Below are positions 1-60,400 of a stretch of DNA of 64,000 nt, one piece after another. The DNA lies in contig CM072909.1 of NCBI GenBank assembly GCA_037013685.1, positions 1,426,001-1,490,000 on the forward strand, written 5' to 3'. The notes beneath the pieces were generated by a model. That model saw only the letters and a list, made by a program, of their open reading frames with translations. It was not told the origin of the DNA and made no database searches. Both the position numbers and the translations under genes were made by a program. Each line of letters starts with the position of its first letter. Position 1 is the stretch's first letter. The DNA comes from Acridotheres tristis. Taxonomy: Eukaryota; Chordata; Aves; Passeriformes; Sturnidae.

Positions 1-304
1 GGGATTTTTCTGAGCGAAAATTGAAAAAAATCGGCTTTTTTCTGCCAGAAAATGTGATTTTCCGAGCAAAAATGGGATTTTTCTAAGGGAAAACTGAAAA
101 AATTGGCTTTTTCTGACAAAAAAATAAGATTTTCTGCGCAAAAATGGAATTTTTCTGAGCACAAATTGAAAAAAAAGCGGATTTTTCTGGCCAAAAATCT
201 GATTTTCTGAGTGAAAATGGAATTTTTCTAAGCGAAAATTGAAAAAAATCGGCTTTTCCCGGCCAGAAAATGTGATTTTCTGAGCGAAAATGGGATTTTT
301 CTAA

Positions 305-340
305 GCAGCAGCAGCACGGTCTGCGCGTTCATGCAGAAAT
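305..340 (-). pseudogene. TMEM127: Partial copy of TMEM127 next-exon 5' edge (copy B)
   Basis: The minus strand reads CTCTCAG then DFCMNAQTVLLLL, closer to the conserved protein than copy A because Met is kept. After about 35 bases it runs into the AAAATCCCATTTT satellite instead of the VIAAFCF-type continuation. It lies 1128 bp from copy A, the period of a higher-order repeat. The true exon is presumed to lie left of position 1. Confidence 0.85.
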
Positions 341-1433
341 CTGAGAGAAAAAACAGAATAAAAACGGGGTCAGACACAAAAACGGGGCGACGGGGGGATG
401 AAAGGGATTTTATATGAGAAAAATGGGAGAAAAGCGGATTTTCTAAGAGAAAAAATGGGATTTTTCGGAGCGAAAATGGGATTTTTCTGAGCGAAAATTG
501 AAGAAAAGCAGATTTTTCCGGCCAGAAAATGTGATTTTCTGAGCAAAAATGCAATTTTTCTGAGCAAAAATTGAAAAAACACGGATTTTTCCAGTAAAAA
601 AATGTGATTTTCCGAGCAAAAATGGGATTTTTCTGAGCTAAAACTCAGCCCCGCACCCAGGGGCGCTGCCCGGCCAGGGATGGGGGTACGGGGAGAAAAA
701 GGGAAAAAAACGGATTTTATAAGAGAAAAATTGGACAAAAGCAGATTTTCTGAGAGAAAAAATGGGATTTTTCCGAGCGAAAATGGGATTTTTCGGAGCG
801 AAAATTGAAGAAAAGTGGATTTTTCCGGCCAAAAAATGGGATTTTCTGAGCGAAAATTGAAAAAAATCGGCTTTTTTTCTGCCAGAAAATGTGATTTTCC
901 GAGCGAAAATGGGATTTTTCTATGCGAAAATTGAAAAAAATGAATTTTTGTGAAACAAAAATCAGATTTTCTATGCAAAAACGGATTTTTCCTGAGCAAA
1001 AATTGAAAAAAAATCGGCTTTTCCCGGCCAAAAATGTGATTTTCTGAGCGAAAATGGGATTTTTCTAAGCGGAAATTGAAGAAAAGCGGATTTTTCCGGC
1101 CAAAAAATAGGATTTTTCCGAGAAAAATGGAATTTTTCCGAGCAAAAATTGAAAAAAAAGCGGATTTTTCCGACCAAAAAATGTGATTTTCGGAGCGAAA
1201 ATGGGATTTTTCTAAGCGAAAACTGAAAAAATCGGCTTTTCCTGACAAAAAAATAAGATTTGCTGAGCAAAAATGGAATTTTTCTGAGCGAAACTTGAAA
1301 AAAAGCGGATTTTTCTGGCCAAAAATCTGATTTTCTGAGCGAAAATGGGATTTTTCTAAGCGAAAATTTTAAAAAATCGGCTTTTCCCTGCCAGAAAATG
1401 TGATTTTCTAAGCGAAAATGGGATTTTTCTAAG

Positions 1434-1468
1434 CAGCAGCAGCACGGTCTGCGCGTTCAGGCAGAAAT
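1434..1468 (-). pseudogene. TMEM127: Partial copy of TMEM127 next-exon 5' edge (copy A)
   Basis: On the minus strand, a pyrimidine tract and CTCTCAG are followed by a phase-1-compatible DFCLNAQTVLLLL, then the sequence falls back into the surrounding satellite. Human TMEM127 reads DFCMNPQTVLLL at this junction. Here the Met codon is Leu, and the rest of the exon (second membrane segment) is missing. It is an exon-edge duplicate inside the intron, not a usable full exon. Confidence 0.85.
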
Positions 1469-3080: not shown

Positions 3081-3098
3081 TGAGCAGGAAACGGAATT

Positions 3099-3540: not shown

Positions 3541-6460
<2,920 letters not shown>

Positions 6461-6481
6461 GTGCCGGGGCTGGGCGCTCAC

Positions 6482-7958: not shown

Positions 7959-16669
<8,711 letters not shown>

Positions 16670-17960: not shown

Positions 17961-17999
17961 GGAAAACGGCCCCGAGGACTCGGGCTGGGGGGGGTTGGG

Positions 18000-19160: not shown

Positions 19161-19167
19161 GGGCACC

Positions 19168-19173
19168 TTTATT
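19168..19173 (-). promoter_or_regulatory. PSD4: Poly(A) signal of the minus-strand PSD gene
   Basis: TTTATT on the plus strand is AATAAA on the minus strand (GTGCAATAAAGGTGCC), about 2 kb downstream of the PSD stop codon. Confidence 0.65.
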
Positions 19174-21189: not shown

Positions 21190-21438
21190 TCACGGGCGGT
21201 GACACTTGGGGACAGTGTCGCGGGTGGCGCGGCGCTCCGAGATGTGTCGCCGCAGGCGGCGCGGGGCCGGCTCGGGGAGCAGCGAGGGGCTGGAGTGAGC
21301 CTTGGTGAGCGGCGCGGGGACACGGGGACACTGCGGGGGGTCCCCAATGTCCCCAATGTCCCCAGGGTCCCCAGGGTCCCCGATGTCCCCGCGCAGCCAC
21401 GCCTCCAGGGCCTGCACGTACGTCAGGGAGCGGTGGCG
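21190..21438 (-). CDS. PSD4: PSD4 last coding exon
   Basis: Eighty-two codons and a stop: [18 protein letters not shown], a [18 protein letters not shown] in-frame repeat, [43 protein letters not shown] and ISERR are the conserved EFA6 tail motifs. Acceptor CCCCGCAG. The GGGGACATT repeat replaces the region where relatives have a helical DDLERIEARLATLEGDDPS-type segment. Confidence 0.9.
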   Translation of the reverse strand, partial: RHRSLTYVQALEAWLRGDIGDPGDPGDIGDIGDPPQCPRVPAPLTKAHSSPSLLPEPAPRRLRRHISERRATRDTVPKCHRP

Positions 21439-36400: not shown

Positions 36401-39400
36401 ATCCCAGAAAATTCACCCGAAATCCCAAAAATTAATCCAAGATCCAATAAAATTAATCGAAAATCATACGAAATTAATAAAAAATTCCTGGAAATTCATC
36501 CAAAATCCAACAAAATTCATCCGAAATCCCACAAAATAATCCAGAATTCCCAAAAAATTCGCCCGAAATCCCAAAAAATTCACCCGAAATTCCCAAAAAA
36601 TTCGCCCGAAATCCCAAAAAATTCACCCGAAATCCCAAAAATTCACCCGAAATCCCAAAAATTCATCTGAAATCCCAAAAATTCACCCGAAATCCCGAAA
36701 ATTCATCCAAAATCCAACAAAATTCATCCAAAATTCCAGGAAATTCATCCCAAATCCCACATATTTACCCAAAAAATCCCACAAAATTCAACCAAAATCC
36801 TAAAAAATTCCCAGGAAATTAATCCAAAATCCCAGGAAATTAATTAAAAATTCCCGAAAATTCACCAAAAATCCCCAAAAATTCATCCAAAATCCCATAA
36901 AATTCATCCAAAATCCCAGGAAATTAATAAAAAAATTCCCAGGAAATTAATCAAAAATTCCCGAAAATTCATCAACAATCCCAAAAAATTCATCCAAAAT
37001 CCCACAAAATTAATCCAAAATCCCTGGAAATTAATAAAAAATTCCCGAAAATTAATCAAAAATCCCATAAAATTAATCAAAAATTCCCGAAAATTAATCA
37101 AAAATCCCAGGAAATTAATAAAAAAATTCCCAGGAAATTAATCAAAAATTCCCGAAAATTCATCCAAAATTCCCAGGAAATTAATCAAAAATTCCCGAAA
37201 ATTAATCCAAAATAAAAAAAAAAATCCCAGGAAATCCAACCCAAAATCCCAAAAATTCCCCCGAAATTCCCCCGAAATTCCCCCAAATTTCCCCCAAATT
37301 CCCCAAAATTTCCCCAAATTTTCCCAAATTTCCCCCAAAATTCCCCCAAATTTTCCCCAAATTTTCCCAAATTTTCCCAAATGCCCCCAATTTTCCCCCC
37401 AAATTTCCCCAAATTTTCTCCCAAATTTTCCAAAATTTCCCCCAAATTTTCCCAAATTTTCCCAAATTTCCCCCAATTCTTCCCCCAAATTTCCCCAAAT
37501 TTTCCCAGATTTTCCCCCAAATTTTCCCAAATTTCTCCCAAATTTTCCCGAATTTTCCCGAATTTTCCCCCAAAATTCCCCAAATTTCCCCAAATTTTCC
37601 CGAATTTTCCCCCAAAATTCCCCCAAATTTCCCCCATTTTTTCCGAATTTTCCCGTTTTTCCCCCAAATTTCCCCAAATTCCCCCAAATTTCCCCAAATT
37701 TCCCCAAAATTTCCCAAACTTCCCCAAATTTTCCCCCAAAATTCCCCCAAATTTTCCCCAATTTTTCCGAATTTTCCCCCAAATTTCCCCCAAATTCCCC
37801 CAAATTTTCCCCAATTTTTCCGAATTTTCCCCCAAATTTCCCCAAATTTTCCCCCAAATTTTCCCAAATTTCCCCAAATTTTCCCCCAAATTTCCCCCAA
37901 ATTCCCCCAAATTTTCCCCAAATTTCCCAAAATTTTCCCAAACCAAAATTCCACCAAATTTTCCCAAATTTTCCCAAATTTTCCCAAATTTTCCCAAATT
38001 TCCCCAAATTTTTCCCCAAATTCCCCCAAATTTTCCCAAATTTTCCCAAATTTTCCCAAATTTCCCCAAATTTTTCCCCAAATTCCCCCAAATTTCCCAA
38101 AATTCCCCAAATTTCCCCCCAAAATTCCCCCAAATTTCCCCCAATTTTTCCCAATTTTCCCAAATTTTCCCGAATTTCCCCAATTTCCCGTCCCCACTCA
38201 CGTGGCCCAGGGCAGTTTGTGGCTGCGGATGGATCCGTACAGAGCCTGCGGCAAAATAAAAAAAAAATAAAAATTAAAATTAAAAAATTCGATTTTTTTC
38301 CCGATTTTTGGGGGTTTTTTGGGTGAAAATCCCGATTTTTCCCCTTTTTGGGAATTTTTTAGGGTTTTTTTGGGGGTCAAAATGGGAATTTTGGGGGTTT
38401 TTGGTGCAAAAATCTCATTTTTCCATTTTTTTTTAATTTTTATTTTTGTGGTTTTTTTCTGATTTTTTTTTCCTAAAACAATCCCAAATTTGAGGTTTTT
38501 TGGGCTGAAAAAAATTCCCATTTTTTCACCTTTTTTGGGATTTTTTAGGATTTTTTTTTGGCATCAAAATCCAAATTTTCGGGTTTTTTTTTTCCTGCAG
38601 AATCTTCATTTTTCTAGAATTTATATTTTTATTTTTATTTTTTGGATTTTTTTTTTTTAACAAAGGCAAATTGGGGTTTTTTTGTTGGTTTTTTGGGGTG
38701 AAAAAAAAATCTCTTTTTTTTCCTCTTTTTGGGAATTTTTTAGGGTTTTTTTGGGGGGTGAAAATCGGAATTTTGGGGGTTTTTTTTTGGTGCAAAATTC
38801 TCATTTTTTCCGTTTTTTTAAATTTTTATTTTCGTTTTTTTTTTAGGTTTTTTTTTCTAGGTCAATCCCAAATTGGAGTTTTTGGGGGAAAATTCCTTTT
38901 TTTCCAATTTTGGGGTATTTTTTAGGGATTTTTTTTGTCAGAATTCAAATTTTTGGAGTTTTTTTGGTGCAAAATTCTCATTTTTTAAGATTTTTATTTT
39001 TATTTTTGCTTTTTTTTTCAGATTTTTTTTTTTTTAACAACGGCAAATTTGGGATTTTTTTGTTGGTTTTTTTGGGGTGAAAATCCCATTTTTTCCCCTT
39101 TTTGGGAATTTTTTAGGGTTTTTTTGGGGGGTCAAAATCCGAATTTTGGGGGGTTTTTTGGTGCAAAAATCTCATTTTTCCATTTTTTTTTAATTTTTAT
39201 TTTTGTTTTTTTTTTTCTGATTTTTTTTTTTCCTAAAACAATCCCATATTTGAGGTTTTTTGGACTGAAAAAAATTCCCATTTTTTCACCTTTTTTTGGG
39301 ATTTTTTTAGGATTTTTTTTTGGCATCAAAATCCAAATTTTCGGGTTTTTTTTTCCCTGCAGAATCTTCATTTTTCCAGAATTTTTATTTTTATTTTCAT

Positions 39401-42400
39401 TTTTGTTCTTGCTTTTTTTTCAGATTTTTTTTTTTTAACAACGGCAAATTTGGGATTTTTTTGTTGGGTTTTTTTTTGGGGTGAAAATCCCATTTTTTCC
39501 CCTTTTTGGGAATTTTTTAGGGTTTTTTTGGGGGGTCAAAATCCGATTTTTTGGGGGTTTTTGGTGCAAAAATCTCATTTTTCCAGGTTTTTTTAATTTT
39601 TATTTTTGGGTTTTTTTTTCTGATTTTTTTTTCCTAAAACAATCCCAAATTTGAGGTTTTTGGGGCTGAAAAAAATCCCATTTTTTCACCTTTTTTGGGA
39701 TTTTTTTAGGATTTTTTTTTGGCATCAAAATCCAAATTTTCGGGTTTTTTTTTTCCTGCAGAATCTTCATTTTTCCAGAATTTTTATTTTTATTTTTATT
39801 TTTATTTTTATTTTTATTTTTATTTTTGTTTTTATTTTTATTTTTATTCTTTGGATTTTTTTTTTTTAAACAAAGGTAAATTTGGGATTTTTTTGTTGGT
39901 TTTTTGGGGTAAAAAAAAAATCTCTTTTTTTTCCCTTTTTTGGGTATTTTTTAGGTTTTTTTTGGGGGTCAAAATCCGAATTTTTGGGGGTTTTTTGGTG
40001 CAAAAATCTCATTTTTCCAGGTTTTTTAAAAATTTTTATTTTTGGGTTTTTTTCTGATTTTTTTTTCTAAAACAATCCCAAATTTGAGGTTTTTTGGGGT
40101 GAAAAAAAATCCTATTTTTTCTCCTTTTTTGGGGATTTTTTTAAAGTTTTTTTTGGGGTCAGAACCCAAATTTTGGGGTTTTTTTTTCCTGCAGAATCTT
40201 CATTTTTCCAGAATTTTTATTTTTATTTTCATTTTTATTTTCATTTTCATTTTCATTTTTATTTTCATTTTTATTTCTATTTTTATTTTTGCGCTTTTTT
40301 CAGATTTTTTTTTTTTAACAAAGGCAAATTTGGGATTTTTTTTGTTGGTTTTTTTGGGGCGAAAATCCCATTTTTTCCTCTTTTTGGGAATTTTTTAGGG
40401 TTTTTTTGGGGGGTCAAAATCCGAATTTTTGGGGTTTTTTGGGGCAAAAATCTCATTTTCCCAGGTTTTTTTAATTTTTATTTTTGGGGTTTTTTCAGAT
40501 TTATTTTTCTAGGACAATCCCAAATTTGAGGTTTTTGGGGCTGAAAAAAATTCCCATTTTTTCTCCTTTTTTGGGATTTTTTTAGGGTTTTTTTTTTTTG
40601 GCATCAAAATCCAAATTTTCGGGTCTTTTTTTTCCTGCAGAATCTTCATTTTTCCAGAATTTTTATTTTTATTTTTATTTTTGTTTTTATTTTTATTTTT
40701 TGGATTTTTTTTTTTTTTAACAAAGGTAAATTTGGGATTTTTTTGTTGGTATTTTTGGGGTGAAAATCCCATTTTTTCCCCTTTTTGGGAATTTTTTAGG
40801 GTTTTTTGGGGGGTCAAAATCCGAATTTTTGGGGGTTTTTGGTGCAAAAATCTCATTTTCCCATTTTTTTAAATTTTTCTTTTTGTTTATTTTCTGATTT
40901 TTTTTTTCCTAAGACAATCCTAAATTTGAGGATTTTTGGGGTGAAAAAAATCCCATTTTTTCCCTTTTTTGGGCTTTTTTTTGGTGATTTTTTTGGGGCT
41001 CAAAATCCAAATTTTTTTTTTAATTTTTTTCCTGCTGAATCCTCTTTTTTTGACCTTTTTCCCTTTTTTTTTTTAATTTCCACCTTTATTTTTGCAGGAC
41101 GATCCCAATTTTGACTTTTGGGGGGAAAATTCCTTTTTTTCCTCATTTAGGTAATTTTTTTTTTGTATTTTTTTGTGTCAAAATCCGAATTTTCGGGTTT
41201 TTTTCCTGCAAAATCCTCATTTTTCCAGGATTTATTTTAATTTTTATTTTTGGGTTTTTTCAGATTTTTTTCTTGGACAATCCCAAATTTGACTTTTCGG
41301 GGAAAAATTCCCATTTTTTCCCTTTTTTGTGATTTTTTTTTTGGGTTTTTTTGCGTCAAAATCCAAATTTTTTTTTATTTTTTTCCTGCCGAATCCTCAT
41401 TTTTTCACCTTTTTTTCACCTTTTTTTTTAATTTCCACCTTTATTTTCACAAGACAATCGAAATTCGGGGGTTTTTTGGGAAAAAATTCAATTTTTTCCC
41501 TTTTTTGGGTATTTTTTGGGTCAAAATCCAAATTTTTTCTTATTTTTTTCCTAACGAATCCTCATTTTTTCACCTTTTCCCTCCGGGTTTTTTTTAATTT
41601 CCACCTTTATTTTTGCAGGACAATCCCAATTTTGACTTTTCGGGGAAAAATTCCTTTTTTCCCCTTTTTTGTGATTTTTTTTGGGTTTTTTTTGCGTCAA
41701 AATCCAAATTTTTTTTTAATTTTTTCCTGCCGAATCCTCATTTTTTCACCTTTTCCCTCCGGGTTTTTTTTAATTCCCACCTTTATTTTCTCAGGACGGT
41801 CCCGATTTGGGGGATTTTGGGGATTTCTATCGATTAATTTTATTTTTTTTTAATTTTTTTCGGGTCACCTTGAGCTGGGCGCGGGGGAAGTCGCGGCCGT
41901 CCATCATCCCGCTCAGGTTGGCCACGAACTCGGAGCAGCTCATGGCCCGCCCCAAACGCTGCCAGGGGAAAAAAAACAACAGAAATGGGGAAAAATCAGA
42001 CGGAAACGGGAAAAAATGGGGAAAAAAATCAAAATTTAGCGAAAACCGCAAAAAAAACGGGGAAAAAACGTCAAAATACGACCCAAAAATCAGACAAAAA
42101 TGGGGGAAAAATAACAAAATCCATCCCAAATTCCAACCCAAATCCAACCCAACATCACCCTAAAAGACACAGAAATGGGGAAAAATCAGATGGAAACGGG
42201 AAAAAATTAAAAATATATCGAAATTCGGGAAAAAATTTGGGGAAAAAACACCAAAATCCGGCCCAAAATCATCAAAAAATGGGAAAAAAAAAACAAAATC
42301 CATCCCAAAATCCACCCAAATCCAACCCAAAATCACCCTAAAATCAACAGAAACGAGGAAAAATGAGACGGAAATGGGAAAAAATGGGACAAAAAAAATC

Positions 42401-45400
42401 AAAATTTAGCGAAAATCGGGAAAAAAACGGGGAAAAAAACATCAAAATACGACCTAAAATCATAAAAAAAAGGGGAAAAAAAATACATCCTAAAATCACC
42501 CAAATCCAGCCCAAAATCACCCTAAAAGACACAGAAATGGGGAAAAATCAGACGGAAATGGGAAAAAATGGGGAAAAAAAAATCAAAATTTAGCGAAAAC
42601 CGCAAAAAAAACGGGGAAAAAACATCAAAATACGACCCAAAATCATCAAAAAATGGGAAAAAAATAACAACATCCATCCCAAAATCCACCCAAATCCAAC
42701 CCAAAATCCACCCAAAATCAACAGAAATGGGGAAAAATGAGACGGAAATGGGAAAAAATGGGGAAAAAAAAAATCAAAATTTAGCGAAAATCGGGAAAAA
42801 AACGGGGAAAAAACATCAAAATATGACCCAAAATCATCAAAAAACGGGAAAAAAACTCAAAATCCATCCCAAAATCCACCCAAAATCCACAGGAATGGGG
42901 AAAATCAGACGGAAATGGGAAAAAATGGGGAAAAAAAATCAAAATTTAGTGAAAATCGGGAAAAAAAAACGGGGAAAAAACATCAAAATATGACCCAAAA
43001 ATCCGACAAAAATGGGGAAAAAACCCCAAAATCAGACGGGAATGGGAAAAAAAAAAATCAAAATTTCCCGAGCAGGTGGGTGGGAGATTTTGGGGGGTTT
43101 TGGGGGTGATTTTTGGGGTGATTTTGGGGATTTTTGGGGTGATTTTTGGGGTGATTTTGGGGGTTTTGGGGGTGATTTTTGGGGTGATTTTTGGGGTGAT
43201 TTGGGGGATTTTTTGGGGGTTATTTTTAGGGTTTTTTGGGTTTTACCTGTCCATAAAGGTCGGTGTGATATTTGGGATTTTTGGGGTGATTTTTGGGGTG
43301 ATTTTGGGGTTTTTTGGGGTTTTTTTGGGTTTTTCCCTGTCCGTGCAGGTCGGTGGGATTTGGGGATATTTGGGATTTTTGGGATTTATTTGGGATTTAT
43401 TTGGGATTTTTTGGGGTGATTTTTGGGGTGATTTGGGGATTTTTTGGGATGATTTTTGGGGTGATTTTGGGGATTTTTTGGGGTGATTTTTGGGGTGATT
43501 TTGGGGATTTTTGGGGTGATTTTTGGGGTGATTTTGGGATTTTTTGGGGTGATTTTTGGGGTGACTTGGGGGATTTTTTGGGGTGATTTTTGGGGTGATT
43601 TTGGGATTTTTTGGGGTGATTTTTGGGGTGATTTTGGGGATGATTTTTGGGGTGATTTTGGGGATTTTTTGGGGTGATTTTTGGGGTGATTTGGGGATTT
43701 TTTGGGGTGATTTTTGGGGTGATTTGGGGATTTTTTGGGGTGATTTTTGGGGTGATTTGGGGATTTTTTGGGGTGATTTTTGGGGTGATTTTGGGGATTT
43801 TTTGGGGTGATTTTTGGGTGATTTGGGGATTTTTTGGGGTGATTTTTGGGGTGATTTTGGGGATTTTTTGGGGTGATTTTTGGGGTGATTTGGGGATTTT
43901 TGGGGTGATTTTTGGGGTGATTTGGGGATTTTTTGGGGTGATTTTTGGGGTGATTTGGGGATTTTTTGGGGTGATTTTTGGGGTGATTTTGGGGATTTTT
44001 GGGGTGATTTTTGGGGTGATTTTGGGGATTTTTTGGGGAGGATTTTTGGAGTGATTTGGGGATTTTTTGGGGTGATTTTTGGGGTGATTTGGGGATTTTT
44101 TGGGGGTGATTTTTGGGGTGATTTGGGGATTTTTTGGGGTGATTTTTGGGGTGATTTTGGGGATTTTTTGGGGAGGATTTTTGGAGTGATTTGGGGATTT
44201 TTTGGGGTGATTTTTGGGGTGATTTGGGGATTTTTTGGGGTGATTTTTGGGGTGATTTGGGGATTTTTTGGGATGATTTTTGGGGTGATTTGGGGATTTT
44301 TTGGGGATGATTTTTGGGTGATTTGGGGATTTTTTGGGGTGATTTTTGGGGTGATTTTTGGGGATTTTTTGGGGTGATTTTTGGGGTGATTTTGGGGATT
44401 TTTTGGGGATGATTTTTGGGGTGATTTTGGGGATTGTTTGGGGTGATTTTTGGGGTGATTTGGGGATTTTTTGGGGTGATTTTGGGGTTTTTTACCTGTC
44501 CGTGCAGGTCGGTGTTGAGCAGCATCAGGGCACAGGTCAGGGTGTGAACGGAGTCTGGGGGGAGTCGGGGGGTCAGGGCACCCCAAAACCCACACAGGGA
44601 CCCCAAAAACTCCCCAGGGACCCCAAAATCCCCCAAGGGACCCCAAAACTCCCCAGGGGACCCCAAAACCCACAGAGGGATCCCAAAATCCTCAAAGGGA
44701 CCCCAAAAACCCACAAAGGGACCCCAAAATCTCCCAGGGGATCCCAAAACTCCCCAGGGGACCCCAAAATCCTCAAAGGGACCCCAAAATCCCCTAAAGG
44801 GACCCCAAAACCCCCAAAACGACCCCAAAATCCACAAAGGGACCCCAAAATCCCCTAAAGGGACCCCAAAACCCCCAAAAAGACCCCAAAACCCACAAAG
44901 GGACCCCAAAATCTTCCAGGGGACCCCGAAATCCACAGAGTGACCCCAAAACTCCCCAGGGGACCCCAAAATCCACAAAGGGACCCCAAAACTCCCAAAG
45001 GGACCCCAAAATCCTTTAAAGGGACCCCAAAATCCCCCAGGGGACCCCAAAACTGCCCAGGGCACCCCAAAAACTCACAGAGGGATCCCAAAATCCTCAA
45101 AGGGACCCCAAAACACACAGAGGGACCCCAAAAACTTCCCAGGGGACCCCAAAATCCACAAAGAGACCCCAAAATCCCCCAAAGGGACCCCAAAACCCAC
45201 AAAGGGACCCCAAAATCCTCAAAGGGACCCCGAAATCCACAGAGGGACCCCAAAATCCTTTAAAGGGACGCCGAAATCCCCCAGGGGACCCCAAAATCCC
45301 CTAAAGGGACGCCAAAACTCCCAAAGGGACCCCAAACCCACAAAGGGACCCCAAAATCCGCAAAAAGACCCCAAACCCACAAAGGGACCCCGAAATCCTC

Positions 45401-48400
45401 CAGGGGACCCCGAAATCCACAGAGGGACCCCAAAACTCCCCAGGGGATCCCAAAACCCACAAAGGGACCCCAAAATCATCAAAGGGACCCCGAAATCCTC
45501 CAGGGGACCCCAAAATCCCCTAAAGGGACCCCAAAACTCCCCAGGGGATCCCAAAACCCACAAAGGGACCCCGAAATCCTCCAGGGGACCCCGAAATCCA
45601 CAGAGGGACCCCAAAACTCCCCAGGGGACCCCAAAACCCACAAAGAGATCCCAAAATGCTCCAGGGGACCCTAAAATCTCCAAAAGGGACCCCAAAACCT
45701 CCCAGGGGATCCTAAAACCCCCCAAAGGGACCCCAAAATCCCCCTAAGGGACCCCAAAATCCCCTAAAGGGACCCCAAAACCTCCCCAGGGGGCCCCAAA
45801 AACCCCCAAAAGGAACCAAAAATCCCCCAAAGGGACCCCAAAATCCTTTAAAGGGACCCCAAAAACCCCCAAAGGGGATCCCAAAAACCCCTAAAAGAAA
45901 CCCAAAACCCACAAAAGGAATCCCAAAACCTCCCCAGGGGACCCCAAAATCCTCCAGGGGACCCCAAAACTGCCCAGGGGACCCCAAAACCCACAAAGGG
46001 ACCCCAAAATCCTCAAAGGGACCCCGAAATCCACAGAGGGACCCCAAAACCCCCTAAGAGATCCCAAAATGCTCCAGGGGACCCTAAAATCTCCAAAAGG
46101 GACCCCAAAACCACCCAGGGGACCCCAAAATCCTCCAGGGGATCCCAAAACCTTCCAGGGACCCCAAAATCCCCTAAAGGGACCCCAAAACTCCCAAAGG
46201 GACCCTAAAATCCCCCAAAGGGACCCTAAAACTGCCCAGGGGACCCCAAAACAACCCAGGGGGCTTCAAAACCCCAAAAGGGACCCCAAAATCCTTTAAA
46301 GGGACCCCAAAATCCTTCAGGGGACCCCAAACCCCCAAAGGGATCCCAAAATCCTTTAAAGGAACCCCAAAATTCCCAAAGGGACCCCAAAAACCCCTGA
46401 AAGGATCCCAAAATCCCCCAAATGGACCCCAAAATCCCCCAAAGGGAACCCAAAACCCACAAAGGGACCCTAAAATCCCCCAGAGAGACCCCAAAACCTC
46501 CCCAGGGGATCCCAAAGTCCTCAAAGGGACCCCAAAACTGCCCAGGGGACCCAGAAATCCTCCAGGGGATCCCAAACCCCCCTAAAGGGATCCCAAAATC
46601 CACAAAGGGACACCAAAATCCCCTAAAGGGACCCCAAAAGGTTTTGGGGCGTGGGGGGGGAGGGGAAACTGAGGCACGGGAGGGGACAAAGGGGTTTGGG
46701 GGTTTGGGGGGATTTGGGGTTTTAGGGTCAGTTTGGGGTGGATTTGGGGATTTGGGGTGGATTTGGGGATTTGGGGTGAGTTTGGGGGGGATTTGGGATT
46801 TTAGGGTGGGTTGGGGGTTTTAGGGTCAGTTTGGGGGGATTTGGGGATTTGGGGTGGATTTGGGGTGAGTTTGGGGTGAGTTTGGGGGGATTTGGGGTGA
46901 GTTTGGGGTGAGTTTGGGGTGAGTTTGGGGTAGGGTTGGAGATTTGGGGGGGATTTGGGGATCTGGGAGGGTTTGGGGTTTTGGGGTGAGTTTGGGGTTT
47001 TGGGGTTAAGTTTTGGGGATTTTTGGGGTCAGTTTTGGGGTTTTTAGGGTCAGTTTTGGGGTCTCACCCGCCGAGGGAAATGCTCCAGGGTTGCAGGGGT
47101 GGATTTGGGGTAATTTTGGGGTAAATTTTGGGGTAAATTTTGGGGATTTTGGGTCTCACCAGCAGAGGGAAAGGCCCCGGGGTTGCAGAGGTGGATTTGG
47201 GGTAAATTTTGGAGTAAATTTTGGGGGTTTTGGGTCTCACCAGCCGAGGGAAAGGCCCCGGGGTTGCAGGAGTGGATTTGGGGTCAGTTTGGGGTAAATT
47301 TTGGGGTAAATTTTGGGGTTTTTGGGTCTCACCAGCAGAAGGAAAGGCCCCGGGGTTGCAGGAGTGGATTTGGGGTAATTTTGGGGTAAATTTTGGGGTA
47401 AATTTTGGGGATTTTGGGTCTCACCAGCAGAGGGAAAGGCCCCGGGGTTGCAGGGGTGGATTTGGGGTAATTTTGGGGTAATTTTGGGGTAAATTTTGGG
47501 GATTTTGGGTCTCACCAGCCGAGGGAAAGGCCCCGGGGTTGCAGGAGGGGATTTGGGGTAATTTTGGGGTAAATTTTGGGGGTTTTGGGTCTCACCAGCT
47601 GAAGGAAAGGCCCCGGGGTTGCAGAGGTGGAAGCGCTGGGAGAAGTGGCTCAGAACTCGCTCCCGCTCCTGAGTCTCCCCCGACAGAACCAGAGACCCCA
47701 AAAACTGCCTGAACATAGAAAATAGATAAAATAAAATAAAAATATATTAAAACAATCCCAAAACAGCCTCAAAGAGCCCCCAAAAACTGCCTGAGGGCAC
47801 AAAAAATGTAAAATAAAATTAAAATATATTAAAAAATTATCCCAAAATAACCCCAGAGAGCGCCCAGGAACTGCCTGAGCACAGGAAAAATATAAAATAA
47901 AATAAAAAAATATCCAAAAACATCCCAAAACAGCCTCACAGAGCGCCCAGGAACTGCCTGAGGGCACAAAAAATATAAAATAAATATTAAATAGATCCAA
48001 AATTATCCAAAAACAGCCTCAAAGAGCGCCCAGGAACTGCCTGAGCACAGGAAAAATATAAAATAAAATAAAAAAATATCCAAAAATATCCCAAAACAGC
48101 CCCAAAGAGCGCCCAGGAACTGCCTGAGAGCACAAAAAATATAAAATAAAATTAAAATATATTAAAAAATTATCCCAAAATAACCCCAGAGAGCGCCCAG
48201 GAACTGCCGGAGGGCACAAAAAATATAAAAATATATATAAAAATATAAAATAAACAGCCCAAAGTATCCCAAAATAATCCCAAAGAGCGCCCAGGAACTG
48301 CCTGAGAGCAGAAAAAAAATATAAAATAAAATAAAAATATATAAAAAAATATCCCAAAACAGCCTCAAAGAGCGCCCAGGAACTGCCTGAGGGCACAAAA

Positions 48401-51400
48401 AATATAAAATAAAATTAAAATATATCCAAAATTATCCAAAATTATCCCAAAATAACCCCAGAGAGCGCCCAGGAACTGCCTGAGGGCACAAAAAATATAA
48501 AATAAAATAAAAATATATAAAAAAATTATCCCAAAATAACCCCAAAGAGCGCCCAGGAACTGCCTGAGAGCAGAAAAAAATATAAAAAATTATTTAAAAT
48601 ATCCAAAAATATCCGAAAATATCCCCAAAGAGCACCCAGGAACTGCCTGAACATGGAAAATATATAAAATAAATATTAAATATAACCAAAAATATCCAAA
48701 AATAACCCCAAAGAGCGCCCAGGAACTGCCTGAGGGCACAAAAAATATAAAATAAAATAAAAATATATCCAAAAATATCCCAAATCAGCCTCAAAGAGCG
48801 CCCAGGAACTGCCTGAACACAAAAAATATAAAATAAATATTAAATTTATCCAAAATTATCCAAAAACAGCCTCACAGAGCGCCCAGGAACTGCCTGAGCA
48901 CAGGAAAAATATAAAATAAAATAAAAAAATATCCAAAATTATCCCAAAATAACCCCAAAGAGCGCCCAGGAACTGCCTGAGGGCACAAAAAATATAAAAT
49001 AAATATTAAATATATCCAAAATTATCCCAAAATATCCCAAAACAGCAACAGACAGCCCCCAGGAACTGCCTGAGAGCACAGAAAATATATAAAATAAAAT
49101 AAAAATATATCCAAAAATAGCCCAAAATATCCTCAAAGAGCCCCCAGGAACTGCCTGAGGGCACAAAAAGTATATAAAATATAAATAAAAATATAAAATA
49201 AACAGCCCAAAATATCCCAAAATAACCCCAGAGAGCGCCCAGGAACTGCCTGGACATAGAAAAAATATAAAATAAAATAAAAATATATAAAAAATTATCC
49301 CAAAACAGCCTCAAAGAGCGCCCAGGAACTGCCTGAGGGCACAAAAAATATAAAAAAATATATAAAAATATAAAATAAACAGCCCAAAATATCCCAAAAC
49401 AGCCTCAAAGAGCCCCCAGGAACTGCCTGGACATAGAAAATATATAAAATAAAATAAAAATATATAAAAAAAAATCTAAAAAAATCCAAAAACAGCCTCA
49501 AAGAGCCCCCAGGAACTGCCTGAGGGCAGAAATAGCCCCAAATTCCCCAAAAATTCCCCAAAAATTCCCTTAAAATCTCTCAAAACCCCCCAGAAATTCC
49601 CCCAATCACCCCAAAAAATTCCCCCAAAAAAATTCCAAAAAATTCCCCCAAATCCCCCCCAAACCACCCCCAAATCCTAAAAATCCCCCAAAAATCCCCC
49701 AAAATTGCCCCCAACCACCCCAAAAATTCCCCCAAAAATTCCCAAAAATTCCAAAAATCCCCCAAATCGCCCCCAAATCCCCCCAAATCCCCCAAAAATT
49801 CCCAAAAATTCCCTAAAATCCCCCCCAAACCCCCCAATCCCCCCAAAATTCCCAAAAAATTCCCCCAAATCCCCCCAAAATTCCCAAAAAATCCTTAAAA
49901 ATCCCCCCAAAATCGCCCCCAAATCCCCCAAAAATTCCCAAAAAATTCCCAAAAATTCCCCAAAAATTCCCAAATCCCCCCAAATCCCCCAAAAATTCCC
50001 CAAAAATCCCCGAAATCCCCCAAAAATCCCCCCAAAATCCCCCAAAATTCCCTAAAAATCTCTCAAAATCCCCCAAAATTGCCCCCAAATCCCCCAAAAA
50101 GTCCCCAAAAATTCCCCAAAAATTCCCAAAAATCCCCCCAAATCTCCCCCAAACCACCCCCAAATCCCAAAAATCCCCAAAAACTCCCCCAAATTGCCCC
50201 CAAATCCCCCCAAACCCCCCAAATCCCTCAAAAATTCCCCAAATCCCCCCAAAATGCCCCAAAAATTCCCAGAAAATCTCCCAAAATCCCCCCAAGCCCC
50301 CCCGAAATCCCCCAAAATTCCCAAAAAATCCTTAAAAATCCCCCCAAAAATCCCCCAAAATCGCCCCCAAATCCCCCCAAAATTCCCCAAAAATTCCAAA
50401 AAATTCCCCCAAATCCCCCCAAAATTCCCAAAAAATCCTTTAAAATCCCCCAAAATCCCCCAAAATCCCCCCAAAATTCCCCAAAAATTCCCCCAAAATT
50501 GCCCCAAAATTCCAAAAAAATTCCCAAAAAAATTCCCAAAAAAAAACCCCCAAACCCCCCAAGCCCCCCAAAATTCCCCAAAAAATTCCCAAAAATTCCC
50601 CAAAAATTCCCAAAAATCCCCCAAATTGCCCCCAATCATCCCAAAAATTCCCAAAAAAATCCCCCCCAAATCCCCCAAAATTCCCAAAAAACCCCCGAAA
50701 TCCCCCAAAAATTCCCAAAAAATCCTTTAAAATCCCCCCAAAATCCCCCAAAATCGCCCCCAAATCCCCCCAAAATCCCCCAAAAATTCCCAAAAAATTC
50801 CCAAAAAATTCCCCAAAATCCCCCAACCCCCCCCAAACCCCCCAAGCCCCCCCAGACCCCCCAAATTCCCCCAATTCCCCCCCGGTGACCTGAGCGCCTG
50901 CTCGAGGCTGAGCCCCCGGAACTGGAAGAGCTGCAGGAACTCCCGAGCCACGCGGGCACTGAACGCCGAGCTGGGATCCAAAAACACACACAACACACAG
51001 AAAAAACCACAAAACACAAAAAAACACAAAAAAACCACACAAAACACACAGAAAACATACAGAAAATACACAGAAAATACACAGAAAAACCACAAAATAA
51101 CACAAAAAAACCACAAAAAACCACAAAAAAACCACAGAAAACACACAGAAAACACAAAAAAACACAAAAACACCCAAAAAACCAGAAAACACAAAAAACA
51201 CAAAAAACACAAAAAACACAAAAAACACAAAAAGCACAAAAAACACACAGAAAACACAGAAAACACAAAAAACCACAAAAACCACAAAAAAACCACACAG
51301 AAAACACAAAAAAACCACAAAAAACACAAAAAACTCACAGAAAACACACAAAACACAAAAACCACACAAAAACCACAAAAACCACACAAAACCACACAAA

Positions 51401-54400
51401 AACACAAAAAACCCACACAAAACACACAGAAAACACACAAAAAAACCACAAAAAACCACAAAAAACCACAAAAAACACACAGAAAACACAGAAAACCACA
51501 AAAACCCACAAAATAACACACAAAAACACAAAAAAACACACAGAAAACACACAAAAACACAAAAAACACACAAAACACACAGAAAACACAAAAAAACCAC
51601 AAAAAACACACACAAAACACACAGAAAACACACAGAAAACACAAAAACCACACAAAAACACACAGAAAACACAAAAACACACAAAACCACAAAAACACAC
51701 AGAAAACACAAAAAAACAGAAAAAACACACAGAAACACACAAAAAACCACAAAAAACACACAGAAAACACACAAAACACACAAAACACACAGAAAACAGA
51801 AAAAAACACAAAAAAACCACAAAAAAACACACAAAAAACCAAAAAACACACAGAAAACACAAAAACCACAGAAATCCAAAAACCACACAGAAAACACAAA
51901 AACACACAAAAAAACAGAAAACACACAGAAAACACACAGAAAACAGAAAAAAAACCACAAAAAAACCACACAAAAACACACAGAAAACACACAGAAAACA
52001 CACAGAAAACACAAAAACCACAAAATAACACAAAAAAGCCACAAAAAACCACAAAAAAACACACAGAAAACACAAAAAAACACACAAAAAACATCAATTC
52101 CACAAAATTAACAAAATTCCCCGAAAATCCCTGAAATTCCCCCAAAAAACCCCGAAATTCCCCAAAAAAATACCAAAATTCCCCCAAAAATCAGCGAAAT
52201 TCCCCCCAAAAATATCCATCAATTCCCCCCAAAAAATATCCATCAATTCTAAAAATATCCATCAGTTCCCAAAAATATCCATCAATTCCAAAAAATAACA
52301 AAATTCCCCCCAAAAATACCGAAATTCCCCCCAAAATATCCATCAATTCCTCAAAAATATCCCAAAATTCCCCCAAAATATCCCAAAATTCCCCCATAAT
52401 ATCCATCAATTCCCAAAAATATCCATCAGATCCCAAAAAATAACAAAATTCCCCAAAAAATGCCGAAATTCCCCCAAAAATACCGAAATTCCCCCCAAAA
52501 AATCCCCGAAATCCCCCCCAAAAAATCCCCGAAATTCCCCCCCAAAAAATCCCCGAAATTCCCCCCAAAAAATATCCATCAATTCCCTCAAAAATATCCC
52601 AAAATTTCCCAAAATATCCATCAATTTCCCAAAAAATATCCATCAATTACCCAAATTTAACAAAATTCCCCCCAAAAATCCCCGAAATTCCCACCCCAAA
52701 ATCCCCAATTCCAAAAAAAATTCCCAAATTCCCACCCCAAAAATCCCCAAATTCCAAAAAAATCCCGTAATTTCCCCAAAATACCAAAATTCCAACCCCA
52801 AAAATCCCCAAATTAAAAAAAAAATCCCCAATTCCCACCCCAAAATCCACAATTCCCCAAATAAAATCCCAAAATTCCCCCAAAAAATCCCAATAAAATC
52901 CCCAATTCCCACCCCAAAAATCCCAAAATTCCCCCAAAACCTCAAAATTCCAAAAAAAAATCCCAAAATTCCCCCCAAAAATCCCCAATTCCCAAAAAAA
53001 ATCCGAATTTTTCTCAACCAAATCTTCATATTTTTTTTTTTTCCTGGAAATTTTCAGGGTTTTTTCCCCCCAAATTCCCATTATTTCCCCCCAAAATCCC
53101 CATTATTTTCCCCCCAAAAATCCCAATTTTTTTCCCAAAATACCCCTCATTTTACCCCCAAAATTCCCATTATTTTTTTTCCGAAATTCCCATTTTTCCC
53201 CCCAAAATTCCCATTATTTCCCCCCAAAATCCCTTTTTTTCCCAAAAAATCTGAATTTTCCCCCCAAAATCCCCTTTTTTTCCCAAAATCCCCATTATTT
53301 CCCCCAGAATCCATATTTTTCCCAAAAAATCTCAATTTTTCCCTCAAAAATCTCAATTTTTCCCCCAAAATCCCCATTTTTTCCCCAAAATCTCCATTTT
53401 CCCCTCCCAAATTCTCATTTTATCTCCCCAAAATTCCCATTATTTTCCCCCCAAAATCCCTATTTTTTTCCCCAAAAAATCTCAATTTTTTCCCCAAAAA
53501 ATCTCCTTTTTCTCCCCAAAATTCCCATTATTTTTCCCCAAAAATCCCTATTTTTTTTCCCAAAAATCTCAATTTTTTTCCCCAAAAAAATCTCAATTTT
53601 TCCCCAGAATCCCCATAATTTCCCCCCCAAATTCCCATTATTTGCCCCCAAAATTCCCATTATTTTCCCCCCAAAATTCCCATTATTCTTTCCCCAAAAT
53701 CTCCATAATTTTTCCCCTCAAAATTCCCATTATTTTTCCAGAATTTCCATTATTTTTTCCCCAAAAATCTCCATTTTTTCCCCAAAAAAATCTCCATTTT
53801 TCCCCAAAAATCCCTACTTTTTCCCCCAAAAATCTCAATTTTTCCCCCAAAATCCCCATTATTTTTCCCCAAAATCCCCATTTTTTCCCCAAAAAATCTC
53901 CATTTTTCCCTCCCAAATTCCCATTTTTTCTCCCCAAAATTCCCATTATTTTCCCCCCAAAATCCCATTTTTTTCCCCCAAAATTCCCATTTTGTTCCCC
54001 AAAATCCCCATTATTTCTCCCCAAAAAATCTCAATTTTTCCCCCACAATCCCCATTATTTTTCCCCAAAATCCGTTTTTTTTTCCCAAAAAATCTCAATT
54101 TTTTTCCCCCAAAAAATCTCTTTTTTGTTCCCCAAAATCCCCATTATTTCTCCCAAAAAAATCTCCTTTTTCTCCCCAAAGTCCCCATTATTTTTCCCTA
54201 AAATCCCTACTTTTTTTCCCAAAAATCTCAATTTTTTTCCCCAAAAAATCTCAATTTTTTCCCCAGAATCCCCATTATTTTTTCCCCCAAAAAATCTCAT
54301 TTTTCCCCCCAAAATTCCCATTTTTTCCCCCAAAATCTCCATTTTTCCCTCCCAAATTCTCATTTTTTTTCCCCACAATCCCCATTATTTTTCCCAAAAA

Positions 54401-57400
54401 AAATCTCCTTTTTCTCCCCCAAATTCCCATTGTTTTCCCCAAAATTCCCATTGTTTTTCCCCCAAAAAATCTCCATTTTTCCCCCCAAAATCCCCATTAT
54501 TTCCCCCAAAATTCCCATATTTTTTTCCCCAAAACCCCATTATTTTCCCCCCCAAAATCCATATTTTTCCCCAAAAAATCTCAATTTTTTTCCCCAAAAA
54601 ATCTAATTTTTTCCCCAAAATCCCCATAATTTTACCCCCAAAATTCCCATTATTTTTTTCCCGAAATTCCCATTTTCCCCCCCAAAATTCCCATTATTTC
54701 CCCCTAAAATCTCAATTTTTTTCCCAAAAAATCTCAATTTTTTTCTCCCGAAAATCTCCATTTTTCCCTCCCAAATTCTCATTTTTTCGCCCCAAAATTC
54801 CCATTATTTTTCCCCAAAAATCCCCATTTTTTTCCCCAAAATCCCTATTTTTTTTCCCAAAAATCTCAATTTTTTTCCCTAAAAAATCTCAATTTTTTCC
54901 CAATATTCCCATAATTTCTCCCAAAAAAATCTCAATTTTTTCCCCCACAATCCCCATTATTTCCCCTTAAAAAAATCTCCTTTTTCTCCCCAAAATCCCC
55001 ATTATTTTCCCCCCAAAATCCCTATTTTTTTTCCCAAAAATCTCAACTTTTTTTTCCCAAAAAATCTCAATTTTTTTCCCCCCAAAATCCCCATTTTTTC
55101 CCCCCAAAATCCCTATTTTTTCCCCAAAAAAATCTCAATTTTCCCCCCAAATCCCCATTATTTTCCCCAAAATCCCCATAATTTTTCCCCTCAAAATTCC
55201 CATTATTTTTCCAGAATTTCCATTATTTTTCCCCAAAAATCTCAAATTTTTTTCCCCAAAAAATCTCCATTTTTTCCCCAAAAAATCTCAATTTTTCCCC
55301 AAAAATCCCTATTTTTTTTTCCCAAAAATCTCAATTTTTTTCCCTAAAAAATCTCAATTTTTTCCCCCACAATCCCCATTATTTCTCCCAAAAAATCTCA
55401 TTTTCTCCCCAAAATTCCCATTATTTTCCCCCCAAAAATCCCTATTTTTTTCCCAAAATTCCCACTATTTTCCCCCCAAAATCCCTATTTTTTTTCCCAA
55501 AAAAATCTCAATTTTTTCCCCCAAAAAAACTCAATTTTTTTCCCAGAATCCCCATAATTTCCCCCCAAAATTCCCATTATTTACCCCAAAATCTCCATTT
55601 TTCCCTCCCAAATTCTCATTTTTTCGCCCCAAAATTCCCATTATTTTCCCCAAAGTTCCCATTATTTTTCCCCCCAAAATCCCCATTATTTTTCCCCAAA
55701 AATCCCTATTTTTTCCCCAAAAATCTCAATTTTTTCCCCAAAAAATCTCAATTTCCCCCCAAAATCCCCCTTATTTTCCCCCCAAAATTCCCATTATTTT
55801 TCCCCCCAAATTTCCCATTATTTTCTCCAAAATCCCCATAATTTTTCCCCAAAAAAATCTCAATTTTTCCCCCAAATTCCCATTATTTACTCCAAAATCT
55901 CCATTTTTCCCTCCCAAATTCTCATTTTTTCGCCCCAAAATTCCCATTATTTTCCCCAAAGTTCCCATTATTTTTCCCCCCAAAAATCCCATTATTTTTC
56001 CCCAAAAATCCCCATTTTTTCCCCAAAAATCTCAATTTTTTTCCCTAAAAAATCTCAATTTTTTCCCATAATCCCCATTATTTCTCCCAAAAAATCTCAT
56101 TTTTCTCCCCAAAATTCCCATTATTTTCCCCCCAAAAATCTCTATTTTTTTTCCCAAAATTCCCATTATTTTCCCCCCAAAATCCCTATTTTTTTTCCCC
56201 AAAAAATCTCAATTTTCCCCCAAAATCCCCATAATCTCCCCCCAAAATTCCCATTATTTTTCCTCCCAAAATTCCCGTTTTTTCCCCAAAATCTCCATTT
56301 TTCCCTCCCAAATTCTCATTTTTTCACCCCAAAAATCCCTATTTTTTTTCCCAAAAATCTCCATTTTTTTCCCTAAAAAATCTCAATTTTTTCCCCCACA
56401 ATCCCCATTATTCCTCCCCAAAAAATCTCATTTTCTCCCCAAACCTCCCATTATTTTTCCCCCAAATCGCCATTATTTCCCCCAATCCCCCTATGATCAT
56501 TATTAATTAATTATCAATTATTAATTATTAATTATTAATTATTAATTAATATTAATGATCCCCTCACTCTCTCCTCAGGTGCGCGGCCACCTCCGATCTC
56601 CTCACCCCGTCCAGGCGGAAAAGGCGCCGGGCCAGGAGAGCAGCGGGGTCTCTGAAATATCAATTAAATTAAAATATAAAATATAAAATAGAAATTAAAT
56701 AGAAATTAAAATATAAAATATAAAAATACAAATATAAATGTAATTAGAGAGAAAAGGCGCCGGGCCAGGAGAGCAGCGGGGTCTCTGAAATATCAATTAA
56801 ATTAAAATATAAAATATAAATTAAAATATAAATTAAAATATAAAATATAAAAATACAAATATAAATGTAATTAGAGAGAAAAGGCGCCGGGCCAGGAGAG
56901 CAGCGGGGTCACTGAAAATATAAAATATAAAATATAAATTAAACAGAAATTAAAATATAGATATAAAAATAAAAATATAAATAGAAATAGAAATAGAAAT
57001 AGAAATAGAAAAGGCGCCGGGCCAGGAGAGCAGCGGGGTCACTAAAAATATAAATTAAATTAAAATATAAAATATAAATTAAATGTAAAATCTAAAATAC
57101 AAAATATAAATATAAAATATAAAATAAAATATAAATGTAAATAGAGAGAAAAGGCGCCGGGCCAGGAGAGCAGCGGGGTCACTGAAATATAAAATATCAA
57201 ATAAAATAAAATGTAAAATATAAATATAAAATATAAAAATAAAAATAAAAATATAAAAATAAAAATATAAATGTAATTAGAGAGAAAAGGCGCCGGGCCA
57301 GGAGAGCAGCGGGGTCACTGAAATTAAATAAAATATAAAATAAAATATAAATTAAAATATAAATTAAATATAAAATACAAAAATAAAAATATAAATGTAA

Positions 57401-60400
57401 ATAGAGAGAAAAGGCGCCGGGCCAGGAAAGCAGCGGGGTCACTGAAATTAAATAAAATATAAATTAAAATATAAATTAAAATATAAAATAAAATGAAATA
57501 AAATAAAAATATAAATAAATTAAATTAAATTAAAGAGAGAGAAAAGGCGCCGGGCCAGGAGAGCAGCGGGGTCACTGAAATTAAATAAAAATAAAGTATA
57601 AAATATAAATTAAAATATAAATTAAATATAAAATACAAAAATAGAAATATAAATGTAAATAGAAAGAAAAGGCGCCGGGCCAGGAGAGCAGTGGGGTCAC
57701 TGAAATTAAATAAAATATAAAATAAAATAAAAAATATAAATTAAATTACAAAAATATAAATATAAATATAAATATAAATATAAATATAAATATAAATATT
57801 AATATAAATATAAATATAAATATAAATATAAATATAAATATAAATATAAATATAAATACAAATATAAATATAAATATAAATAGAGAGAAAAGGCGCCGGG
57901 CCAGGAGAGCAGCGGGGTCACTAAAAATATAAAATATAAAATATAAATTAAGTATAAATTAAAATATAAAAATAAAAATAAAAATAAAAATAAAAATAAA
58001 AATAAAAATAAAAATAAAAATAAAAATAAAAATATAAATATAAATAGAAATAGAAATAGAAATATAAATAGAAAAGGCGCCGGGCCAGGAGAGCAGCGGG
58101 GTCACTGAAATAAATAAAATGTAAAGCATAAAATATAAAACACAAAACATAAAATATAAAACACAAAATATAAAACAAAATATAAAACACAAACTATAAA
58201 ACATAAAACATAAAATATAAAATATAAAATATAAAAAAAAATAAAAATATAAAAATAAAAATAAAAAATAAAACTAAAAATTAAAACTAAAATTAAAATT
58301 AAAATTAATGTTAAACACAAGGGCATGGGGGGGGATGGGAATTTTGGGGGGATGGGAAAAATGGGGGGAGGGGACCCCAAAATCTGCCTGGGGGGGGAGG
58401 GGAACGGGGGGGGAGATTGGGGGGATTTGGGGGGTCGGGGGGGGGATTTGGGGTTTTTGGGGGGAGTTTTTGGGGCGGTTTTGGGGGGTCTGGGGGGGGG
58501 ATTTGGGGGTTTTTGGGGGGGGCGGGATGATTTGGGGATTTTTGGGGGGATCTGGAGGTTTTTAGGAGGATTTGGGGGGATTTTTGGGGGGGGATTTTGG
58601 GGGATTTTTGGGGGGGGTTGGGGGGGGGGATTTGGGGTTTTTTTTGGGGGGGGGGTCGGGAAGGATTTGGGGTCTTGGGGATTTTGGGGATTTTTTGGGG
58701 GGGGTTTGGGGATTTTTGGGGGGATTTTGGGGGGGTCTGGGGGGGATTTGGGGTTTTTTTTTTGGGGGGGGGCGGGAAGGATTTGGGGTTTTGGGGGGTC
58801 TGGAGGTTTTTAGGGGGATTTTGGGGGGGGATTTTTGGGGCGGCTTTGGGGGGTCTGGGGGGGGATTTGGGGTTTTTTGGGGGGGTCGGGAATGATTTGG
58901 GGTTTTGGGGGGATTTTTGGGGGAGATTGGGGGATTTTGGGGGGGTCTGGAGTTTTTGGGGGGATTTGGGGGAATTTTGGGGGGATTTGAGGGGGGTTTG
59001 GGGGATTTGGGGCGGTTTTGGGGGGTCTGGGGGGATTTGGGGATTTTTGGGGGGGGGATTTTGGGGAGTTTTTGGGGAGATTTGGGGGGTTTTTTGGGGT
59101 GGATTTTTGGGGGGTCCTGGGGATCCCCAAATTCTGCCCGGGCTGGGGGGGGGGGGAGGGGTTGGGGGATGGGCAGAGAGGATTTGGGGGGTCCCAAAGG
59201 GGTCTGGGGGGGTTTGTGGGGGGGGGTTGGGGGTTTTGGGGGGGGGTCCCAAAGGGGTTTGGGGGGTTTTGGGGGGGGTTGGGGGGGGGGTCAGGCAGAA
59301 TTTGGGGGGTCCCAAATGGGTCTGGGGGGTCTGGGGGGGTCAGTCAGGGTTTGGGGGGGGATTGGGGGGGGTTTTGGGGGGGCCCAAATGGGTCTGGGGG
59401 GGTTTGGGGGGGTTGGGGGGGTCAGGCAGAGTTTGGGGGGGTCTGGGGGGTTTTGGGGGGGTCCCAAAGGGGTCTGGGGGGTTTTGGGGGGGGTTTGGGG
59501 ATTTTGGGGGATTTTTGGGGGGGGTTTTGGGGGGTTTTTGGGGGGTTCCTCACCCGGGGGGGTCCCGCGGGGGGTCCGGGCCGGTTTCGGGGGGCGGCTC
59601 CTCAGGGTCGGGGGGCGACGCTGCGGGAGGGGGCCCCCCAAAACCCCCCGGGCTGGGGGGGGGGGGCTGGGGGGGGTCCTGGGGGGTCTGGGGGGCGTCC
59701 AGGGGGGATTTGGGGGGGTCCTGGGGGGATTTGGGGGGGCCCAGGGGGTTTTGGGGGGGTCCTGGGGGGTCTGGGGGGGGGCCCAGGGGGGGTTTGGGGG
59801 GGTCCTGAGGAATTTGGGGAAGGGTCAGGGGGGTTTTGGGGGGACTCTGGGGGGATTCGGGGGGGTCCTGAGCCGTTTTGGGGGGCTCCTGGGGGCCGGG
59901 GGGGCCCAGGGGGGATTTGGGGGGGCCCAGGGGGGTTTTGGGGGGGTCCTGAGCCGTTTTAGGGGGGCTCAGTGAGGATTTGGGGGGGCCCTGAGAAATT
60001 TGGGGGAGGATCAGGGGGGATTTGGGGGGGCCCAGGGGGGGTTTGGGGGGGTCCTGAGTGATTTTGGGGGGGTCCTGAGTGATTCTGGGGGGGCCCAGGG
60101 GGGGTTTGGGGGGGCCCCGCGGACTCTGGGGGGGTCTCAAATGGGTCTGGGGGCTCAGGGGGCCGGGGGGGCTCTGGACCCCCCATTTTGGGGGTAAATT
60201 TGGGGGGGCCGCGGGGGGTTTGTGCCCCCCTTTTTGGGGCAAATCCGGGGGGTTTTGGGGTCCCCCTTTTTGGGGCGAATCTGAGGATTCTGGGGGGTTT
60301 TGGGGTCCCCCTTTTTGGGGTAAATCTGGGGGGGCTGCAGGGATTTTGTCCCCCCCTTTTTGGGGAAAATCCGGGGGGATTGGGGTAATTTGGACGCCCC

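Follow-up and report, generated by a model that had tools for sequence, protein, structure and literature searches.

Exon-end copies that include splice sites in the introns of three neighbouring genes of Acridotheres tristis: exon stuttering with variants that respect the reading frame

The minisatellite of the human 6-16 gene (IFI6) provides multiple splice donor sites, each of its tandem units having a donor at the exon edge; its units are very short, it concerns one gene, and some of its donors are used. Tandem repeats at exon–intron boundaries in human segmental duplications are described in PMC2812944 as forming novel introns. The closest described system is exon stuttering in chicken, a phenomenon linked to dot chromosomes (Hron et al. 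2026, PMC12954441). The main text of that paper reports 1,345 matches in 115 genes and 236 introns, 190 of these on dot chromosomes, in which the lateral part of an exon is copied together with its splice site. The exonic lengths are 20–187 bases (median 36) in a screen for at least 20 bases, and there are 1–44 copies, with a median of 4. Strong length variation between individuals is also described there, and support from raw nanopore reads is shown for PHF8. The mechanism is left open in that text, with replication stress or meiotic conversion being named. A literature search with the terms of that paper found no second paper.

We analysed a stretch of 64,000 nucleotides of A. tristis (hereafter, the window), of which 88 % is tandem repeats, introns and the remainder taken together (Tandem Repeats Finder). 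It holds three neighbouring genes (Table 1). The CIAO1 protein of 335 residues matched human CIAO1 (3fm0) over its whole length (E 2.5e-173), and the exon 4/5 junction formed by the innermost splice sites aligned to it without a gap. The second gene, on the minus strand, encodes a Sec7 domain (PF01369) and a PH domain (PF15410); following the preliminary description, we take it to be PSD. Its twelve exons form a single open frame from 59,620 to 21,190, and residues 28–181, in Sec7, aligned without a gap to ARNO. In both CIAO1 and PSD, the reading frame passes cleanly across the innermost splice sites, and this continuity with 3fm0 and ARNO suggests that the innermost sites are the real ones. 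The exon structure of PSD above 59,620 is uncertain, and a frame that stays open across the junctions placed at 62,012 and 61,912 makes both of them doubtful. An open frame of 1346 residues at 59959–63999 (minus strand), likewise with uncertain exon borders, consists mostly of repeated protein motifs and may represent a coding minisatellite near the N-terminus of PSD. Kilobases of intron repeats at 26001–30000 and 52001–56000 have a GC skew of about +0.85 and −0.91 to −0.96, respectively, which is an extreme strand asymmetry. The minus-strand gene at the start of the window is presumably TMEM127, a name from the same source; its first exon had no match in Pfam or PDB. A search of Rfam at gathering thresholds was negative.

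Table 1. Genes, exons and copies of exon edges, with positions in the window
Feature	Position	Strand	Real exon border	AG or GT	Remarks
CIAO1	7959..16669	+			seven coding exons, 335 residues
CIAO1 exons	7959-8097, 10021-10169, 10654-10765, 11928-12019, 14207-14399, 15347-15425, 16426-16669	+
PSD-type (Sec7 + PH) gene	21190..64000	-			twelve exons, 59620 down to stop 21190
TMEM127 first exon (presumed)	6719-6482	-			name from the preliminary description
TMEM127 acceptor-edge copy	304..340	-			CAG and about 37 exonic bases; source exon outside the window
TMEM127 acceptor-edge copy, second	1432..1468	-			same edge as 304..340; source exon outside the window
CIAO1 exon 4 donor-edge copy	12096..12128	+	end 12019	GT kept
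CIAO1 exon 4 donor-edge copy, second	12241..12273	+		GT kept
CIAO1 exon 5 acceptor array, 19 copies	12682..14167	+	start 14207	AG kept 19/19
CIAO1 exon 5 donor end, one copy	14916..14945	+			ends before the junction
PSD exon d acceptor array, 10 copies	56751..58104	-	start 56651	AG kept 10/10	array GC 0.21, G4 motifs 0
PSD exon f acceptor array, 21 copies	47773..49519	-	start 47708	AG kept 20/21
PSD exon f donor array, 6 copies	47068..47544	-	end 47596		7 variants, 7/7 synonymous
PSD exon g donor, 2 copies	43247..43355	-	end 44496	GT lost in one
PSD exon k acceptor, 4 copies	32314..33158	-	start 31953		3 variants, 3/3 synonymous
PSD exon k donor, 1 copy	31085..31131	-	end 31749	GT lost	2 variants, 2/2 synonymous
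PSD exon l donor, 3 copies	23261..23629	-	end 23738		core equals exon exactly
PSD exon m acceptor, 4 copies	22246..22956	-	start 22193		nearest two in frame and open
PSD exon m donor, 4 copies	21732..22010	-	end 22056		three in frame and open

For 38 junctions in the window (12 of CIAO1, 25 of PSD including the two doubtful ones and one of TMEM127), up to 48 exonic and 12 intronic bases were used as a query against the whole window on both strands, and a match with at least 12 exonic bases was taken as a junction-spanning copy. This unrestricted scan detected 59 junction-spanning matches at 11 of the 38 junctions, with none on the opposite strand. Shuffled exon edges (20 rounds, one strand) yielded a mean of 0.75 matches per scan, with 0.2 junction-spanning. 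Ten further matches, none of them junction-spanning, were found at PSD b (2), j (2), l acceptor (3), k acceptor (1) and m acceptor (1) and at the donor end of CIAO1 exon 5 (1); of these, we counted the CIAO1 match alone as a copy, and its donor side is the twelfth affected exon end. A permissive search found partial copies of the exon end at 12 of the 38 junctions, a total of 77 in numbers as assembled (1, 1, 2, 2, 3, 4, 4, 4, 6, 10, 19 and 21 per junction; median 4). At the CIAO1 exon 5 acceptor, the unrestricted scan counted 20 and the permissive search 19; at the PSD f acceptor, the numbers were 3 and 21. With about 10 % mismatch allowed, neither strand of the window contained any of the 12 exonic cores at another place.

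The preliminary description had reported exon edges with their AG or GT repeated in the introns of three neighbouring genes, at 'at least nine' junctions and with only one full exon at each. The 77 copies and the two in TMEM127 bear this out, nine being an undercount. The exonic cores compared were 18–47 bases long and the measured extents 6–47 bases; values below 18 occurred only at the PSD f acceptor, whose copies have mismatches to the exon at neighbouring positions. Since no extent exceeds 47 bases and the exons have at least 59, none of the 77 copies is a complete exon.

In the unrestricted scan, all 41 acceptor matches lay upstream of their exon and all 18 donor matches downstream. The permissive search covered the expected side only, within 3 kb, and is therefore no test of direction. 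The rule of direction proposed earlier thus stands as an observation, but not as additional evidence for duplication, because the geometry of tandem duplication forces acceptor copies upstream and donor copies downstream. Recurrent, local, junction-spanning tandem duplication, as also proposed, is itself well supported by the contiguous arrays, by copies at both ends of PSD exons f, k and m, and by the CIAO1 exon 5 array, where 18 copies break off after 33 exonic bases and one after 44, which makes two breakpoints. The single longer copy, at 13896–13939, reaches 11 bases further into exon 5 than the other 18 and represents a second breakpoint or a later exchange. Duplication alone is nevertheless insufficient, in view of the mosaic units and the frame-specific coding signature described below.

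Three sets of sequences lie outside these counts. In the TMEM127 intron (1–2600), a block of about 1.1 kb is duplicated and has carried the exon edge along, the two blocks being 87 % identical across 1182 aligned columns (73 gap positions). Copies of the last PSD exon's 3' coding end lie at 19957, 20500 and 20666 in a downstream array (19900–20670, minus strand); by eye, they have amino-acid changes, and one has a one-base deletion. A degenerate fragment was also seen by eye near 12,544.

Compared with the chicken system as described in the main text of PMC12954441, the window has the same partial copies of exon ends with donor or acceptor in the adjacent intron, the same imperfect tandem units and the same introns filled with simple repeats. 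Richness in simple tandem repeats and direct tandem exon copies in the adjacent intron, two features of exon stuttering, are both found here, and at 11 of the 12 affected exon ends the copied stretch extends to the exon border and takes in the splice site. The number of copies (1–21, median 4) compares with 1–44 (median 4) in chicken, and the exonic cores of 18–47 bases with lengths of 20–187 (median 36). Against the chicken screen for at least 20 bases, the PSD f acceptor and g donor have cores of 18 and extents of 6–19 and 19–20, respectively, and the other ten exon ends have at least 27. Unlike in that description of chicken, several arrays here lie in AT-rich introns. The phenomenon itself is already published, and the window is a new case of exon stuttering; CIAO1, TMEM127 and PSD were not found in the main text of PMC12954441, whose gene list is in the supplement.

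Minisatellite expansion at an exon–intron boundary is shared with the repeats of PMC2812944, but those are described as altering exons or making new introns, whereas here the exons are intact and the copies intronic. With respect to intron gain by tandem genomic duplication, the copies are intronic and the proteins are continuous with their homologues in the CIAO1 and Sec7 alignments, which gives no hint of such a gain. As in human 6-16, the tandem units carry a donor site at an exon edge; in 6-16, the units are very short and belong to a single gene, and some of the donors are used.

The splice sites of the copies were assessed in 76 instead of 77 cases, the donor end of CIAO1 exon 5 being set aside because the core compared ends before the true junction. 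The AG or GT was kept in 73 of the 76 junction-reaching copies, with one loss each at the PSD f acceptor, g donor and k donor. The donor 9-mer was identical to that of the real site in 15 of 18 copies (CIAO1 exon 4, 2/2; PSD f, 5/6; g, 1/2; k, 0/1; l, 3/3; m, 4/4), which makes it plausible that the spliceosome chooses one site among many decoys, as had been suggested. Only nine of the 76 copies would be in frame and free of stops if they replaced the real site (three at the CIAO1 exon 5 acceptor, one at the PSD f donor, two at the m acceptor and three at the m donor), the three in CIAO1 being those nearest the exon; the other 67 would cause a frame shift or a stop. No copy was readable at the PSD f acceptor (0/21), k acceptor (0/4) or k donor (0/1), and one of six was at the f donor. 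The splicing puzzle can thus be put in numbers: 73 copies with an intact dinucleotide lie beside 11 exon ends, and most would be harmful if used. Among all pairings of sites, the innermost one yields the shortest exon that contains the real exon body, and the decoys are therefore probably mostly ignored.

Variants in the copies were compared with the real exon, each position and base being counted once per array. Of 35 variants, a small sample from this single locus, 21 were synonymous and 14 nonsynonymous; without constraint, 8.6 to 10.2 synonymous variants would be expected (P 2e-5 to 1.3e-4). In the two wrong frames, the same 35 variants gave 10:25 and 2:33. The variants in the copied exon pieces therefore respect the reading frame. 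The excess comes from PSD (20:7) and is absent in CIAO1 alone (1:7), where the exon 4 donor gave 0:4 and the exon 5 donor end, whose three nonsynonymous variants were kept in the total, 0:3. In a model with equal time in the exon lineage and full constraint, the overall excess was marginal (P 0.010 to 0.053), and that of PSD alone was still significant (P 0.0005 to 0.003). Left out of the 21:14 were both TMEM127 copies (with a difference of one base between them, an amino-acid change by eye), the three 3' coding-end copies of PSD and the fragment near 12,544; adding them would make the excess a little weaker.

The signal is clearest in variants shared among copies. All 11 polymorphic variants present in more than one, though not in every, copy of an array were synonymous, compared with 1/11 and 0/11 in the wrong frames; the product of the expected fractions is 1.7e-6, although variants within an array are not independent. 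When fixed differences were included, the ratio was 11:2 for variants in at least two copies and 10:12 for private variants (Fisher P 0.025), and in arrays of at least three copies the ratios were 11:1 and 6:5 (P 0.059). One nonsynonymous difference from the exon is common to all 21 copies at the PSD f acceptor. The word 'synonymous' was not found in the main text of PMC12954441 and, as far as that text goes, the frame-specific signature is not described there and is new here.

The exonic parts were less diverged than both 60-base flanks in seven of eight arrays, the exception being the PSD f donor array, where the exonic part was not less diverged than the left flank. Because the flanks are of low complexity and prone to slippage, part of their divergence reflects slippage, and low exonic divergence alone is no proof of selection; we therefore relied on the frame control. 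In a separate comparison, nearer copies were not significantly more exon-like than distant ones (P 0.16 over nine arrays), and such a polarity was not upheld. Four-gamete pairs between unit segments, the mark of mosaic units, were found in all five arrays with testable pairs, namely, CIAO1 exon 5 (9/11), PSD d (32/48), f acceptor (36/39), f donor (1/1) and k acceptor (6/6), neither PSD m array having any; such pairs can also arise from recurrent mutation or slippage.

The simplest account would be one old junction-spanning duplication per array, followed by amplification among the intronic copies only and by free drift. The near-neutral private variants (10 synonymous, 12 not) and the decayed copies at the CIAO1 exon 4 donor and exon 5 donor end agree with this, but a set of shared variants that are synonymous without exception, and in the true frame only, is unexpected under drift. 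Being sorted by codon position, the shared variants do not look like the product of free drift after a single capture, and we regard this account as unlikely.

The copies might instead be selected themselves, as functional alternative splice sites or coding extensions. The retention of AG or GT, the conserved exonic parts and the nine readable copies, among them the nearest three CIAO1 exon 5 acceptors and five of the eight copies at PSD exon m, could be read in this way, yet 67 of the 76 would shift the frame or introduce a stop, and homologous proteins are without such inserts. The clearest coding mark, moreover, stands in arrays that are mostly unreadable, the f and k arrays of PSD, which makes direct selection on the copies very unlikely. 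With both free drift and direct selection disfavoured, the shared variants would have reached the arrays via the real exon.

We therefore consider it probable that the window represents exon stuttering in which the real exon edge takes part in the turnover of the array, with selection on the exon filtering the copies; the frame-specific signature suggests such participation. Short local tandem duplications in unstable introns would often cross a junction, and the exon end and its splice site would thereby be copied. Each duplication would leave one intact exon, which is the innermost copy in the anatomy described above, and would be tolerated for that reason; as the duplication spans one junction, the only copy still joined to the exon body is the exon. 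The arrays would then turn over by exchange among units, with the real exon edge serving as a repeated template for new units or as a partner in gene conversion. Given this involvement of the exon, selection on it would filter the exon-edge variants that spread through the array, a step suggested by the frame-specific synonymous signature. Shared variants would be those passed through the real exon, a passage with which the mosaic units are compatible, and private variants would reflect later, unconstrained change. Most decoys would be ignored by splicing.

Repeat-rich DNA is difficult to assemble, and single-copy junctions might have been wrongly expanded. The copies within arrays differ, however, in flanks and spacing, although the exact copy numbers may still be wrong, and their differences follow the codon frame, which is not expected of assembly error. 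The same structure was checked against raw nanopore reads in chicken PHF8, as the main text of PMC12954441 reports. An assembly artefact is, in our judgement, scarcely credible.

As to what drives the duplications, replication stress due to G-quadruplexes or GC content inside the array is proposed, among other causes, in the main text of PMC12954441. The exons have 70–72 % GC, and the two strands of the window carry 203 and 267 G4-type motifs, in line with such a driver, but four of the nine array regions counted, including the three richest in copies, are without any such motif, and the PSD d array has only 21 % GC. The duplications thus do not require a G-quadruplex inside the array, and we regard this driver as rather unlikely; one outside the array but nearby might contribute.

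These results add three linked genes to exon stuttering and provide, in the frame test, a means of separating exon ends that were copied once and are drifting from those whose exon takes part in the turnover. If copies carry a coding frame and yet cannot be read, the exon itself must feed or correct the array. We further raise, tentatively and with slightly less than even confidence, the reading that the real exon edge is a continually re-used template and that the arrays are archives of past synonymous states of the exon, preserved in the intron through re-copying or conversion. If this is true, a single genome could suffice to read the recent history of an exon edge, and non-coding repeat arrays would be shaped by selection on proteins.
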